In this document: piece by piece, positions 56,562-62,935 of the stretch | Layout of the letters: the number at the start of each line of letters is the position of its first letter | Numbering within the stretch: the stretch's first letter is position 1 | Assembly: GCA_028101965.1 (NCBI GenBank) | Contig: JAOHMI010000004.1 | Coordinates: forward strand, 1-64,000 | Length of the DNA: 64,000 bases | Direction: 5' to 3' | Source of the DNA: Bacteriovoracaceae bacterium | Lineage (GTDB): Bacteria; Bdellovibrionota; Bacteriovoracia; Bacteriovoracales; Bacteriovoracaceae | Notes under the pieces: generated by a model | What the model saw: only the letters and a program-made list of their open reading frames with translations | Database searches by the model: none | What the model was told of the DNA's origin: nothing | Made by a program: the position numbers and the translations under genes

Positions 56562-57167
56562 CTAATTAAAGAAAGAAGCTCCGCTGCGATGGAAATGCTT
56601 TGACTCAATTTCTTCCACGAACCAATGCTGTCGACATCGAGCTTCATAGGTCTCTAACTCACCGACCATAACTTGGTCTGCATCTTCTTTCTGGATTAAG
56701 CGATGGCTTCTGCTAGCTGCATTCCCACAAATAGTACAAATTGCACTAATTTTCTGAACTTCGTCGGCGATGGCCAGAAGTTCAGGCATAGGCCCAAAAG
56801 GAACACCCTTAAAATCTAGGTCTAGCCCTGCACAAATTACTCTAAACCCTCGATTTGCCAATTTATTGACGATATCAACGATCTTATTATCAAAAAACTG
56901 CACTTCATCAATTCCCACAACACGAGTAAGATCGTGAACTTTTCCCAGCAATTCATCCGAATCTTGGACCGGAATTGCTTTAACTACTTGAGATGAATGG
57001 CTAACCACATCATTAGCATCATATCGATCATCAATTTTTGGTTTAAAGATTTGAACTCTTAATTTTGCTATTTGAGCTCTTTTGACTCTTCGAATAAGCT
57101 CTTCAGTTTTACCTGAAAACATAGGTCCACATACAACTTCAATTGATCCGTATTGAGAATAAGCCAA
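56562..57167 (-). CDS. tdk: Thymidine kinase (type II)
   Basis: A 201-residue kinase. A TTG start is used: AAGGAG is eight bases upstream and there is no better start. Motifs: GPMFSGKTEELIRR (P-loop), VVGIDEVQFF (Walker B), GLDLDFKGVPFG lasso region and the zinc Cys CTICG. It phosphorylates thymidine, which a predator can take from degraded prey DNA. It is the first gene of the salvage run, 145 bp before the uracil PRTase. Confidence 0.95.
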   Translation of the reverse strand: MAYSQYGSIEVVCGPMFSGKTEELIRRVKRAQIAKLRVQIFKPKIDDRYDANDVVSHSSQVVKAIPVQDSDELLGKVHDLTRVVGIDEVQFFDNKIVDIVNKLANRGFRVICAGLDLDFKGVPFGPMPELLAIADEVQKISAICTICGNAASRSHRLIQKEDADQVMVGELETYEARCRQHWFVEEIESKHFHRSGASFFN

Positions 57168-57994: not shown

Positions 57995-58651
57995 TTAAAT
58001 TAAACTAAACAGTAAGGTAAGCATTGAAAGAACAGTAAAGATAACTAAGATTACTGGAAAAAATAAAATAAAAAACGAAACGAGCCTTCCCGCTTTAAAC
58101 TGCTTTCGAATCCCAATATAAATTAAAACAGCTGAATATAACGTATAAAGTGTTTTTCCTAAAACCGGTATTATCCCTAGAAGATATGAGGAAAAATGAG
58201 TATTAATAATATCATTAATTTTCTCATCTTTATTTTTAACATCACCAAGAACTTCGGCGAAGAATTTCAGAATAAAAGTATAGAACTCAATATATAAATA
58301 ATTAAATAAAGGAAAGAATATGACATCGACGAGTGAACTAAATGTCACAAAATATAATCCTCGAACTAGGTAACTCTCATCTAATCCCATTAAAGAAAAG
58401 TAACTTAACACTCCTTGGTCTATTAAATTAAAGTAAAAAATAACAGTAATAAACAGATTAAGGATATTGCCAAAAAAAACGCAAAACCAACTACACATTA
58501 AAGAAGAAGATAGATCTAGTTTCTCAGGATAGGGATTATTTCCAGGAAGAGGAATATTATATAGGTAATAATCATGAATCCGAATTGGATGGAGAAAAGC
58601 CAATAAGTAAGTACTACAGATATGATAAAAGGAATCGAGATAAGCTGTCAT
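57995..58651 (-). CDS. YIP1-like integral membrane protein
   Basis: A 218-residue protein with five probable membrane segments. The start YLLAFLHPIRI and the last two-thirds (VLGDVKNKDEKINDIINTHF, LLGIIPVLGKTLYTLYSAV, IGIRKQFKAG) resemble YIP1-family proteins. The ATG overlaps the stop of the gene upstream (4 bp), so it ends the Gld-type ABC operon. Role in that system is unknown. Confidence 0.6.
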   Translation of the reverse strand: MTAYLDSFYHICSTYLLAFLHPIRIHDYYLYNIPLPGNNPYPEKLDLSSSLMCSWFCVFFGNILNLFITVIFYFNLIDQGVLSYFSLMGLDESYLVRGLYFVTFSSLVDVIFFPLFNYLYIEFYTFILKFFAEVLGDVKNKDEKINDIINTHFSSYLLGIIPVLGKTLYTLYSAVLIYIGIRKQFKAGRLVSFFILFFPVILVIFTVLSMLTLLFSLI

Positions 58652-59613
58652 GGTACTTTATTCTCCACTTTTCGATTTGTATGCTCCCAATGGGTGGGCT
58701 CAAATAAATAAGGATTTTCTAGTTTGTGATTAAATTCAAAAATTAAGTTAGGAAAAGATGAAATTTTCAAGAAGTGTCCGTATCGCTCACCCTTGCGCTG
58801 AAAAAACTCAAGATTCAATAATTCCTGGTCTAAGTTATTATGAAAAATAATTTTTGCCATGGAGGCTAATAAGTTTTCTTGCTCACCATTAAATGACACT
58901 CTAGTCATCCACTCTTGTTCAGAGAAATAGGCTAGCTTCGGCAATATGGGTTGGATACCCATGGTTTTATCTGTGTCTTCTAAAATAAGTCTATTTTTAA
59001 ATGGATAGAGAGTATAAGCTCTCTTCAAAATTTTACTTACAAAAATCTTATTAACATCATCCAACTGAATATAATCCTTTAATTTATAACTTAAAACTGA
59101 TTCTTGTTTTGAATTGAATAGAGCAACTAAAGCTTCATAGCGTTTATTATATTTCTCCGTTTTACTTCGATACAAATCATCACTAATGTATGTATCTTGA
59201 ACAATATATATCTTTTCATTTATCTTTAATAAAAATTGGTGATTGAAGCTGAAATAATCCCCAAGCTCTAACTTAAGGCTTTTTTCCTTTGCCTTAACGA
59301 TCAACTTTGCTCTTGAAGTAAAGGAATATTCTTTATTCTCTCTTAATAATTCAAGGTGATTTAATCTTTTAGTTAAATGTTGAATAAATTTTTCTCGTAC
59401 GGGATATTTATGATTAACAAATAGCTTTTTATCTTTTTTTTGAATAAAGAAATTCTTATTTGAAAGTTCTGAGATATTATCAGTCTCTATTTTTTCCCCA
59501 AAGATAAGATACTTCTGGGTTAAGTAGAAATCATATTTATTTCTCTCGATTAAAAGTGCAACCGCCGAAACAAGAACCAATAAGGACAAGAGAAAAAAGT
59601 TTTTTTTATTGAT
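58648..59613 (-). CDS. DUF4340-like periplasmic protein of the Gld-type ABC operon (ATC start)
   Basis: A 321-residue protein when read from ATC at 59613. The frame opens there after a stop eight codons' distance from AAGGAG, with that site eight bases before the ATC. The N-terminus becomes (M)NKKNFFLLSLLVLVSAVALL, a normal signal anchor. The only other start is a TTG at 59589 with no ribosome site, inside the hydrophobic segment. Residues 40-210 (KNFFIQKKDKKLFVNHKY, LKINEKIYIVQDTYISDD) fit DUF4340, a partner of GldG-type proteins. It overlaps the end of the gldG-like gene by 8 bp. Confidence 0.75.
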   Translation of the reverse strand: MNKKNFFLLSLLVLVSAVALLIERNKYDFYLTQKYLIFGEKIETDNISELSNKNFFIQKKDKKLFVNHKYPVREKFIQHLTKRLNHLELLRENKEYSFTSRAKLIVKAKEKSLKLELGDYFSFNHQFLLKINEKIYIVQDTYISDDLYRSKTEKYNKRYEALVALFNSKQESVLSYKLKDYIQLDDVNKIFVSKILKRAYTLYPFKNRLILEDTDKTMGIQPILPKLAYFSEQEWMTRVSFNGEQENLLASMAKIIFHNNLDQELLNLEFFQRKGERYGHFLKISSFPNLIFEFNHKLENPYLFEPTHWEHTNRKVENKVP

Positions 59614-61150
59614 ACTTTAATCTCCTTAAATAATTGGCTAAAGACCAAATTAAAAAAGCTAACGGTAAACAAATTATTGAGAAGTAAATCATTATATTTA
59701 AGTGAACCTGATTAATCAGTATTTTATTATCTCTAATATTTAGACGCTTTGGAATAACTGGACTCTGTTGATTAAACTCTCGATTAAAAAGATTTAAAAC
59801 TAAATGGTAGTTTGATGAAAGTCCTTTATAAGCGTTAGAGATCAATTGAGCACTCGCAAAAAATAATAACTTCTTGGTTTTCGCTTTATTAGACATTTTA
59901 AAAGATAAAGGAAATGGCCCTTTTAAATCTTTTCCTTCATTAAAACTAACTTTGTTATCAAATACTGATTTGAAATTAGTCTCTCCCCAAACAGCTGGAA
60001 AAGAATCGGTTTGTTGTAAAATATCAATCGAGGAAAAATCGTCAATTTGTGGTTTTTCTAAATTAACCCCTAATCCCAGTGGATAAAAATTCTTATCTCC
60101 AATCATTTTTGGTAGCTTGGTGGTGTTTTTAGCCTGAATAATTGATGAGTCTAGATTGTTTAGCTTTGCCAATTGATCCACGAGCAAATTACTTTGAAAG
60201 GTAATTCCGAATTGATTCTTTAACCATTCTCTCAAATTGGGTAGCCCTACTTCATCCACCCGGCTTCCTAAAAACATGATGAGGTTGTTCTTTTGTCCTG
60301 GTTGATTAAACCAACTCGAAAAAGAGATCACTTCACTGGAAGTAAAATCCACTGATGGATCAAGCATTAAAACGTTAAATGATGAGCTTCCTCGTAACCT
60401 TGTAATCTGAGATAACGTAACTCGAATTAAATTAAACCCTTCGTTTTCTAATAATCGGCTGATAAAAGAGTATCGAGAATTTTGTCCATCTCTACTAATC
60501 ACAGGAGTTCCATGATCACTTAATAGATAGAGTGGTATAGGCTTAAAGACCAGCTTTTTCAAGGCGAGCGTTATACTACCTTCACTTCGTGCGGTTCCTT
60601 TGATAAATTCACTATTTTCTTGGCGAATGAGAAGATCCCCTTCTTTTACCAATAAATGTTGATTTACTAAATTTTGATTTAAATTTGGATCCTTCCAAAC
60701 TACTTTTAGCTTCTGGTTTTCCATCTGGTATAGTTTCAATAGATCAATATATTTTTTTTTCTGGGATTGACTCGCAAAAAGATTAATCTCAATTTCCTTA
60801 TCAATTTTGTTTAAGATGCTTTTCGTTTCAATTGAAAGTGTATTAATTTTATTTGTAGTTAAATCCCAATAAACATCATTTTTATTGGTTACAAAATTAA
60901 CCACTACAAAAATAAAAAAAACTAAAACCACTCCAACGAGTTCATTGATATAGAATTTCAAGTCATAGGGGGAAATCACATTAACGATGGTTTTTCTAAG
61001 CGGAAAGAACAACATAACCCCAAAAAGAAAAACAACCCCTGAAGTCACAATGTTAATTTGTAAATTTTCAGGCATTATGAAGTACATAAATAGATTGATA
61101 AATAAAAGAAAAATGGTCAAAAAGATAAAGAGAAGAAGACTTCTTTTCAT
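59606..61150 (-). CDS. GldG-like ABC transporter substrate/auxiliary protein
   Basis: A 514-residue membrane protein of the uncharacterised ABC-type family PF09822 (GldG). It has two membrane segments near the start (residues 5-27 and 30-50), a third at about 69-84, a periplasmic domain (VYWDLTTNKINTLSIETKSI, VVWKDPNLNQNLVNQHLLV, PLYLLSDHGTP) and a C-terminal anchor (IMIYFSIICLPLAFLIWSLA). The ATG overlaps the permease stop by 4 bp. It works with the permease and ATPase upstream; the substrate of this branch is unknown. Confidence 0.85.
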   Translation of the reverse strand: MKRSLLLFIFLTIFLLFINLFMYFIMPENLQINIVTSGVVFLFGVMLFFPLRKTIVNVISPYDLKFYINELVGVVLVFFIFVVVNFVTNKNDVYWDLTTNKINTLSIETKSILNKIDKEIEINLFASQSQKKKYIDLLKLYQMENQKLKVVWKDPNLNQNLVNQHLLVKEGDLLIRQENSEFIKGTARSEGSITLALKKLVFKPIPLYLLSDHGTPVISRDGQNSRYSFISRLLENEGFNLIRVTLSQITRLRGSSSFNVLMLDPSVDFTSSEVISFSSWFNQPGQKNNLIMFLGSRVDEVGLPNLREWLKNQFGITFQSNLLVDQLAKLNNLDSSIIQAKNTTKLPKMIGDKNFYPLGLGVNLEKPQIDDFSSIDILQQTDSFPAVWGETNFKSVFDNKVSFNEGKDLKGPFPLSFKMSNKAKTKKLLFFASAQLISNAYKGLSSNYHLVLNLFNREFNQQSPVIPKRLNIRDNKILINQVHLNIMIYFSIICLPLAFLIWSLANYLRRLKYQ

Positions 61151-61923
61151 GATCGTCCCCTTTCCAGCTTAGTTTTAGTTAATAGGTAGAAAATTGTTAT
61201 AAAGGCTAAGAAATATGACACCTGGGATAGTTGAAGAACCCCACGTGCAATATTTTCAAAATAAGATAGCATGGAAAACTTTTCAATAAAGCTCGATAAA
61301 AAGATGTTATCCATTGAGCGAGAAATCCAACTAAGCATCCAAAAAAATAAAATCAACATGATAGAGGATAGTCCTGAAACAAAACTAACTTTAAAGACCG
61401 CTGAACAAAAAATACCGATCATAGAATAAAGACAAATATTATAAAAAATTCCAATGTACGATGATAAAACCAAACTCAACTCATGGAAACCAACAGAATA
61501 CATCATCATTGGAAAGATGGCAGTGCTTATTAGTATTAGACAGCTGATGAAAAGAACTGAAAGCCACTTGGACCAAATTAACTTTTTAAGTGTTATTCCA
61601 TTTAACAAATAAAGTGAAATGAGGTTTTTTTGTTTTTGATCTGAGAAAGTATTCATTGAAATTAAAGGTATAAAAAATAAAAAAAGAAAATTTAAATAAC
61701 CAAAAAAGCGAAAGAAAACCTGATCTAAAAAAGCTGTCGCAGGGATCTGACTGGAAAGAACATCTTGATAGCGATTTATATAAGTTAAAATAAGATTGAG
61801 GTAAATAACTCCAGCAACTATTAAGAAAAGAAAAAGTACAAATGGCCCGAGCGAGGAACGAAAAAATAGTTGAACTTCCGTTAGAGTTAGTAAACGAATT
61901 TGCTTTAATGATAATCGTTTAAT
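61147..61923 (-). CDS. GldF-like ABC-2 permease (ATT start)
   Basis: A 258-residue permease read from ATT at 61923. GGAGG stands six bases before it. No ATG, GTG or TTG occurs in this frame between the preceding stop and an ATG 89 codons inside (61656), which would remove the first segments. The new N-terminus (M)KRLSLKQIRLLTLTEVQLFF is what ABC-2/GldF proteins have, followed by six membrane segments and the PLISMNTFSDQKQKNLIS loop. The ATPase gene ends 1 bp before. It carries the pore of the transporter. Confidence 0.85.
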   Translation of the reverse strand: MKRLSLKQIRLLTLTEVQLFFRSSLGPFVLFLFLIVAGVIYLNLILTYINRYQDVLSSQIPATAFLDQVFFRFFGYLNFLFLFFIPLISMNTFSDQKQKNLISLYLLNGITLKKLIWSKWLSVLFISCLILISTAIFPMMMYSVGFHELSLVLSSYIGIFYNICLYSMIGIFCSAVFKVSFVSGLSSIMLILFFWMLSWISRSMDNIFLSSFIEKFSMLSYFENIARGVLQLSQVSYFLAFITIFYLLTKTKLERGRS

Positions 61924-61924
61924 C

Positions 61925-62812
61925 TTATTCCTCCTTAATTCGACTGATAAATTCTTGCTCTAAGGATTTTGTTTGTTTGGATAAATGGTGAATTCCTATA
62001 TTCTGTAAAATTAATTTTCTTGAAAATTCACTTAATGCTGGGCCTATTTCATTTAAGTTAGGTTCAAACTCTACTTCAAATTCAGATGGAGAAAGTGAAA
62101 TTATTTTATGAATGCTTTTTGATTCTTCAGCTATTTTTTTAACAAGAGAATAATCCAGGTTATGACATTTAACTAGGTACTTTTCATCTTGCTCATGTTT
62201 AAAAATTTCTTGCGCACTACCGCTGAAGATGGTCTCACCTTTTTTGAGTATAGTAATGTCATCAGCTAAATCTCGAACTAAGTTAAGCTGATGCTCCGAA
62301 AGGATAATGGTTTTCTTATTTTTATATTTCAATAAAATTTGAATTAAATGATCTTTTCCTTCAATATCTAAACCACTAAGAGGCTCATCCAGGATTATAA
62401 CCTCTGGATCGTTTATAAAAACTAAAGCTAGGCTAACTTTTTGTTTTTGCCCTTTAGAAAGATTACCCACATACTTATGCTTTAAATCCTCTATTCCCCA
62501 TTCTTTGATTAAATCTTGCCAATGAGTTTTAAAATTTAGCGAGCAAAAATATTTTATTAGTTCCTCAACTCTTAAATCATCATAAGTTGGTGGATTTTCA
62601 AATAAATATCCAATTTGTTGATAAGATAGTCTTGGGGAAATATCTCCTTGCGATGGCTTTATTAAACCGGCTAAACAAGAGAATAAGGTTGTTTTCCCAG
62701 CGCCATTTGGCCCAATAACAGCATGAATCCTACCAGGCTTGAAGGTGAGATTCACATTCCTTAAGGCTTCTAGAAAATGGTATCTGTGCGTCAATCCGTG
62801 AACGCGAAGCAT
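61925..62812 (-). CDS. GldA-like ABC transporter ATPase
   Basis: A 295-residue ATPase from the ATG at 62812 (62821 and 62893 are alternatives; the last leaves only 42 bp before the divergent gene and adds a non-conserved leader). Walker A is GPNGAGKT (34-41), signature LSKGQ (118-122) and Walker B VIILDEP (138-144). A His switch sits in LSEHQL. It powers the permease downstream. The order ATPase, permease, GldG, DUF4340 is that of the Gld-type or Nos-like uncharacterised export systems. Confidence 0.92.
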   Translation of the reverse strand: MLRVHGLTHRYHFLEALRNVNLTFKPGRIHAVIGPNGAGKTTLFSCLAGLIKPSQGDISPRLSYQQIGYLFENPPTYDDLRVEELIKYFCSLNFKTHWQDLIKEWGIEDLKHKYVGNLSKGQKQKVSLALVFINDPEVIILDEPLSGLDIEGKDHLIQILLKYKNKKTIILSEHQLNLVRDLADDITILKKGETIFSGSAQEIFKHEQDEKYLVKCHNLDYSLVKKIAEESKSIHKIISLSPSEFEVEFEPNLNEIGPALSEFSRKLILQNIGIHHLSKQTKSLEQEFISRIKEE

Positions 62813-62935
62813 ACTTTCCATGGGCAATAGTATACTTAATTTCTGATAACTCGCCAAATGTGAAATTATTACTTCAAGCTCGATACAATTCATTACTTCT
62901 TTGAGATTGACCTCTTTCAGACCTTTGGAGGGGAT

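Follow-up and report, generated by a model that had tools for sequence, protein, structure and literature searches.

Candidate AUU and AUC start codons at two adjacent genes of an ABC transporter operon in an uncultured member of the Bacteriovoracaceae

Introduction

Can two neighbouring genes of one bacterial operon be translated from AUU and AUC, or were their ordinary start codons lost through mutation or misread during sequencing? The question is raised by a minus-strand ABC transporter operon within 64,000 nucleotides of contig JAOHMI010000004.1 (GCA_028101965.1), the stretch referred to here as the window, in which an earlier reading of the sequence by itself (the sequence-only reading) had assigned an ATT start to a permease gene and an ATC start to a neighbouring DUF4340-like gene. 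The answer matters because gene finders normally accept ATG, GTG and TTG only, so that genes like the permease are silently truncated or dropped. In E. coli, IF3 acts against initiation at the AUU of its own gene (PMC9410913), and S. aureus uses AUU and AUA starts (cvfC1, ccpN, infC and others) with extended Shine-Dalgarno (SD) motifs and lower output; ribosome profiling and reporters demonstrated these starts, which other staphylococci have conserved (PMC13009471). The E. coli pcnB start, read directly, is GAGGTGTACT-ATT.

Results

Contig C137, which carries the window, belongs to a fragmented, 66.6% complete MAG (2.78 Mb, 202 contigs) from an uncultured, Bdellovibrio-like bacterium, the single representative of its genus among the genomes compared and a member of the family of Bacteriovorax and Halobacteriovorax (Bacteriovoracaceae). 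Five genes make up the operon, encoding in order an ABC ATPase, a GldF-type permease, a GldG-like subunit, a DUF4340-like subunit and a multi-pass membrane protein (Table 1), and a thymidine kinase gene lies beyond it after one opposite-strand gene. Two relatives (L207 and L209) have the identical order of the five genes with thymidine kinase next. Scores against TIGR03522, TIGR03518 and TIGR03521 were 134.5 of 402.6, 84.5 of 288.5 and 27.6 of 389.85 bits, below the equivalog cut-offs, and judged by its sequence the transporter is of the same superfamily as GldAFG and not made up of Gld equivalogs. Pfam searches with the multi-pass membrane protein and with the DUF4340-like protein of the window gave no match, the latter thus having none over the gathering score of DUF4340 (PF14238); one relative, L209, matches that family at 19.5 of 25 bits, below the gathering score. 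The label 'DUF4340-like' is a weak one, taken from synteny and a weak alignment. Almost no relatives were found with this protein as search query, and the corresponding genes were located via synteny instead; a first contig scan with the single permease as query found no relative. Permease identity to family relatives is 28-35%.

Table 1. Operon genes and proposed initiation signals (window coordinates).
Feature	Position	Strand	Basis or remark
ABC ATPase gene (GldA/DrrA type)	61925..62821	-	PF00005 1.7e-29; TIGR03522/TIGR01188 below cut-off
Extended Shine-Dalgarno TAAGGAGG of permease gene	61930..61937	-	within 3' end of ATPase gene, 6 nt before ATT
Putative ATT start codon of permease gene	61921..61923	-	best SD-spaced codon
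GldF-type ABC-2 permease, 258 aa if begun at ATT	61147..61923	-	TIGR03518 1.1e-23, residues 14-254, below equivalog cut-off
GldG-like subunit (DUF7088 / ABC_transp_aux), ordinary ATG start	59606..61150	-	PF23357 5.1e-07, over cut-off; PF09822 below cut-off; synteny
Extended Shine-Dalgarno TAAGGAG of DUF4340-like gene	59622..59628	-	within 3' end of GldG-like gene
Putative ATC start codon of DUF4340-like gene	59611..59613	-	position of the relatives' ATG
DUF4340-like membrane-anchored subunit, 321 aa if begun at ATC	58648..59613	-	synteny with L207 and L209; weak alignment, N-terminus matching
Multi-pass membrane protein, last operon gene	57995..58651	-	ATG overlaps preceding stop (ATGA); ortholog in L207/L209, 29% identity

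The permease frame reads ...GAA TTA AGG AGG AAT AAG ATT AAA CGA TTA..., and the GGAGG, the six bases, the ATT AAA CGA and the 89 codons without ATG, GTG or TTG that the sequence-only reading had listed were all exact on re-reading. From the in-frame upstream stop at 61960-61962 as far as 61656 this frame contains no ATG, GTG or TTG; the first is ATG 61656, 89 codons downstream, and initiation there would cost the protein 89 residues, among them TM1 and many invariant positions. In an alignment with 19 relatives, homology sets in at column 16, an invariant Glu; in all relatives it reaches column 5-16, ahead of every standard start, so that no ATG, GTG or TTG is able to give the conserved protein. 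The permeases of the relatives start with ATG (28/28, Bacteriovoracaceae) at about column 5-9, and the ATT stands 4-8 residues upstream of the homologs' N-terminus. Stops close the other two frames across the permease N-terminus, neither of which contains a standard start, and a single indel in the T6 run therefore rescues no ordinary start. The ATT could itself have arisen through the loss of one T from TAATGATT, by which a former second codon, ATT, became the start.

In the DUF4340-like frame TAAGGAG is followed by ATTAAAGT and then by ATC AAT AAA, and here too the earlier description, AAGGAG with ATC eight bases from its last G, was reproduced to the letter. Further along the frame, the first standard codon is TTG 59589, 8 codons on, which has no SD and would shorten the membrane anchor; as a start it is formally possible. 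All seven of the relatives' genes (7/7) start with ATG and open ATG AAA AAG AAC or similarly (MKKN, MKRN), and the ATC matches the N-terminus of these homologs exactly, I-N-K-K-N of the window aligning on MKKN.

Both proposed starts are one base off AUG and stand 4-9 nt after an SD (TAAGGAGG-6-ATT; TAAGGAG, 8 nt, ATC). The SD matches are 8 bases for the permease, as TAAGGAGG pairs with the anti-SD throughout, and 7 bases for the DUF4340-like gene; a match of at least 7 at any of the first three standard starts was found in only 2.7% of 1729 called ORFs. The start assignments made beforehand are well supported by this layout, by homology and by the genome-wide excess described below, and translation of the permease gene from AUU (61923) and of the DUF4340-like gene from AUC (59613) is highly probable on sequence grounds. 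Since every relative has ATG at the start of both genes, ATT and ATC represent the derived state in this lineage, and near-cognate starts at these two genes are not conserved. ATG in relatives, borne out here at both sites, had been named beforehand as only one half of a refutation, the other half being ATG in a resequenced read of this strain.

Within the 2.25 Mb of the MAG surveyed (1729 ORFs called), about ten further genes, spread over many contigs, have an SD followed by ATT or ATC and typical second codons, with no usable standard start. Among them are infC (GGAGGT-6-ATT), a lipoprotein gene (C117) with homologs in 116/125 family genomes and its first standard start 61 codons in, and a gene for a PBP-like protein (C142) that overlaps its upstream gene, has homologs in 114/125 family genomes and reaches its first standard start after 91 codons. 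In another (C101) the beginning of a HAD domain lies upstream of any standard start, and seven more (C112, C169, two on C149, C1, C68 and C3) open at ATT/ATC with an N-terminus of signal-peptide, lipoprotein or membrane type, the second codon being mostly AAA/AAG/AAT. Apart from infC, four genes (permease, C117, C142, C68) go 55 codons or more without a standard start; they were found regardless of function and all encode membrane, lipoprotein, envelope or secreted proteins, a shared character that may be chance. Late-start counts put the true near-cognate total at perhaps 10-25 genes (0.5-1.3%), uncertain about threefold. At such frequencies 0.1-0.3 adjacent near-cognate pairs are expected, so the pair in the window is only mildly unexpected and is no argument for operon-specific control.

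To avoid picking, a signal-peptide test was designed in which every codon of every long frame was considered if it preceded a basic n-region and a hydrophobic stretch, with an SD of at least 5 upstream and no standard codon nearby. ATT and ATC together gave 7 matches, the DUF4340-like gene of the window included, against 1.3 expected (P = 3.6e-4), ATA and CTG gave 0, and the standard codons ATG/GTG/TTG gave 94/12/3. When the SD was shifted by 12 nt, ATT and ATC gave 2 matches vs 1.6. The same test on 1.37 Mb of other bacteria, a control made up of mixed loci and not a complete relative genome, found 0 ATT or ATC vs 88 standard codons (Fisher P = 0.018). The excess is visible in filtered sets only: a whole-genome SD-to-codon tally over all 64 codons and all genes showed no ATT/ATC excess because background dominates, and the same tally over genes without an SD at their standard start gave ATT 15 vs 10.6, not significant alone, although both window genes stood out among its strong-SD matches.

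A further observation concerns frameshifts. At least four homopolymer frameshifts occur in the MAG (C1:14783+, L032; C126:24156+, L083; C1:35687-, L072; C159:77822-, L188), with one-base indels at A8 or T6 runs in genes for an NtrC-type regulator, a CFA synthase and others; these are either assembly homopolymer errors or sites corrected by slippage. The four, together with C163:9269-, were dropped as start candidates, being frameshifts or antisense.

Four other accounts of the two loci were weighed. Sequencing or assembly errors may have changed ATG to ATT and ATC, as the sequence-only reading had allowed, or the mutations may be real and the operon decaying in this lineage, with both proteins made poorly or not at all. 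Errors or pseudogene mutations would be expected to produce far more premature stops than lost starts. A screen of the 1729 ORFs at 45% sensitivity found one premature stop (a TGA at C170:25369-, L068, reading ...KAKLLQKAK, the stop, then KLGKEIKLKDSYNILARSAGYENWNSYKK), with four lost starts detectable; a random substitution yields a lost start in 1.1% of detectable opportunities, and four of five events then have P = 7e-8. An error rate sufficient for about ten start codons would thus leave many premature stops, and the cases lie on many contigs. The fragmented, incomplete state of the MAG and its homopolymer frameshifts lend errors some credit, but no near-cognate start requires a homopolymer indel. 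A systematic error confined to ATG would evade the premature-stop screen, and with it the comparison of stops with starts, yet a change of G to T or C restricted to start codons fits no error mode known to us, and errors are judged quite improbable. Decay, for its part, draws on the ATG of the relatives at both sites and on the length of the DUF4340-like protein, which is 321 aa against 400-436 in relatives. Set against this are five operon frames that are all intact, SDs in the window that are stronger than average, the single premature stop, and the recurrence of the pattern in the family-conserved lipoprotein (C117) and PBP-like protein (C142); decay is therefore considered unlikely. Judged by the stops-versus-starts and signal-peptide tests, neither random sequence errors nor point mutation into pseudogenes explains the genome-wide pattern well.

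The remaining accounts keep ordinary initiation. ATG 61656 and TTG 59589 are the first standard codons in their frames, but the one would strip the permease of its first 89 residues, invariant ones included, the other lacks an SD and cuts into the membrane anchor, and both would leave a strong SD without a start, which makes their use very improbable. Fusion of each protein to the product of the gene in front, by a +1 frameshift, has in its favour that each downstream frame is +1 relative to the gene before it and stays open through that gene's stop. The overlap codons before the TAA (GAA; TAT CAA) give no slippery +1 re-pairing, however, and the relatives have separate ATG starts, so that such fusions are scarcely credible.

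Discussion

Initiation from AUU and AUC, which we infer together with coupling and low output, could proceed as follows. Initiator tRNA-fMet would read AUU or AUC despite the third-base mismatch, while the SD motifs, unusually long at 8 and 7 bases, would keep the 30S subunit in position. Both starts are found at the stop of the preceding gene: the TAA of the ATPase gene, whose probable ATG start is at 62821 or 62812, ends 1 nt before the permease ATT, and the DUF4340-like ATC overlaps the end of the GldG-like gene by 8 nt. Because of this adjacency, ribosomes ending the ATPase or GldG-like gene may be able to reinitiate there. Ancestrally both positions carried AUG; the weak starts that replaced it would be stabilised by SD pairing plus, in coupled genes, reinitiation, and the expected effect would be low, coupled output of both membrane subunits. 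With about ten more such genes, infC included, tolerance of AUU/AUC would characterise the organism as a whole rather than the operon, and the organism seems, from its sequence, to use weak AUU/AUC starts more often than bacteria usually do.

The type of start is already known from E. coli infC and pcnB and from S. aureus; what is unusual is how many occur in a single genome. As in E. coli infC and pcnB, an AUU follows an SD with low translation expected, and infC of the MAG has the same GGAGG-6-ATT layout, whereas here two adjacent genes of one operon are concerned, one with AUC, and about ten more in one genome. The pairing of a near-cognate start with an extended SD and an expected lower output recalls S. 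aureus, but here the starts are deduced from sequence, are not common to relatives and are AUU/AUC, with no AUA outside infC. Deinococcus deserti reportedly uses non-canonical initiation codons, ATC and CTG, seen by proteomics of N-terminal peptides; it resembles the present case in that non-standard starts exceed expectation in its genome.

A second question is whether IF3 takes part. In most of the relatives examined infC has ATA, ATT or ATC after GGAGG-6, the third base varying (L001 1501-2070 (-), L154-L183). IF3 of the MAG is intact, ordinary and similar to solved IF3s; an altered IF3 as the cause of the near-cognate starts was set aside, since the protein looks normal. Given this ordinary IF3 and the near-cognate start of infC, discrimination against AUU presumably operates in this organism. 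IF3 control of the transporter, which the earlier reading had suggested, is a plausible hypothesis; that IF3 level sets transporter output is speculative. A second initiator tRNA reading AUY was sought in part of the incomplete MAG, where only 15 tRNAs and no initiator were found. It is conceivable, though doubtful, that start selection in this lineage is so relaxed that AUU and AUC, as frequent as UUG among SD-led secreted proteins, are regular starts of about 1% of genes, perhaps enriched for the envelope and including the transporter, with output moving together with IF3. An organism carrying about ten AUU/AUC starts lends itself to asking whether IF3 regulates genes other than its own and what makes near-cognate starts work, be it an extended SD or coupling to the previous gene; such genes also raise the question of how often these starts are missed in other genomes.

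Two minor observations were made alongside. The thymidine kinase gene of the window (56562-57167, minus strand) has an apparent TTG start, where the L207 and L209 relatives have ATG. Two lipoproteins (L134 9619-9963 (-) and L074 5896-10131 (-)), one of them a 1412 aa DUF285/LRR/Big protein, share the start ...ACGP(N/R)VSTVKK, and both open with AGGAG and then ATC AAA.
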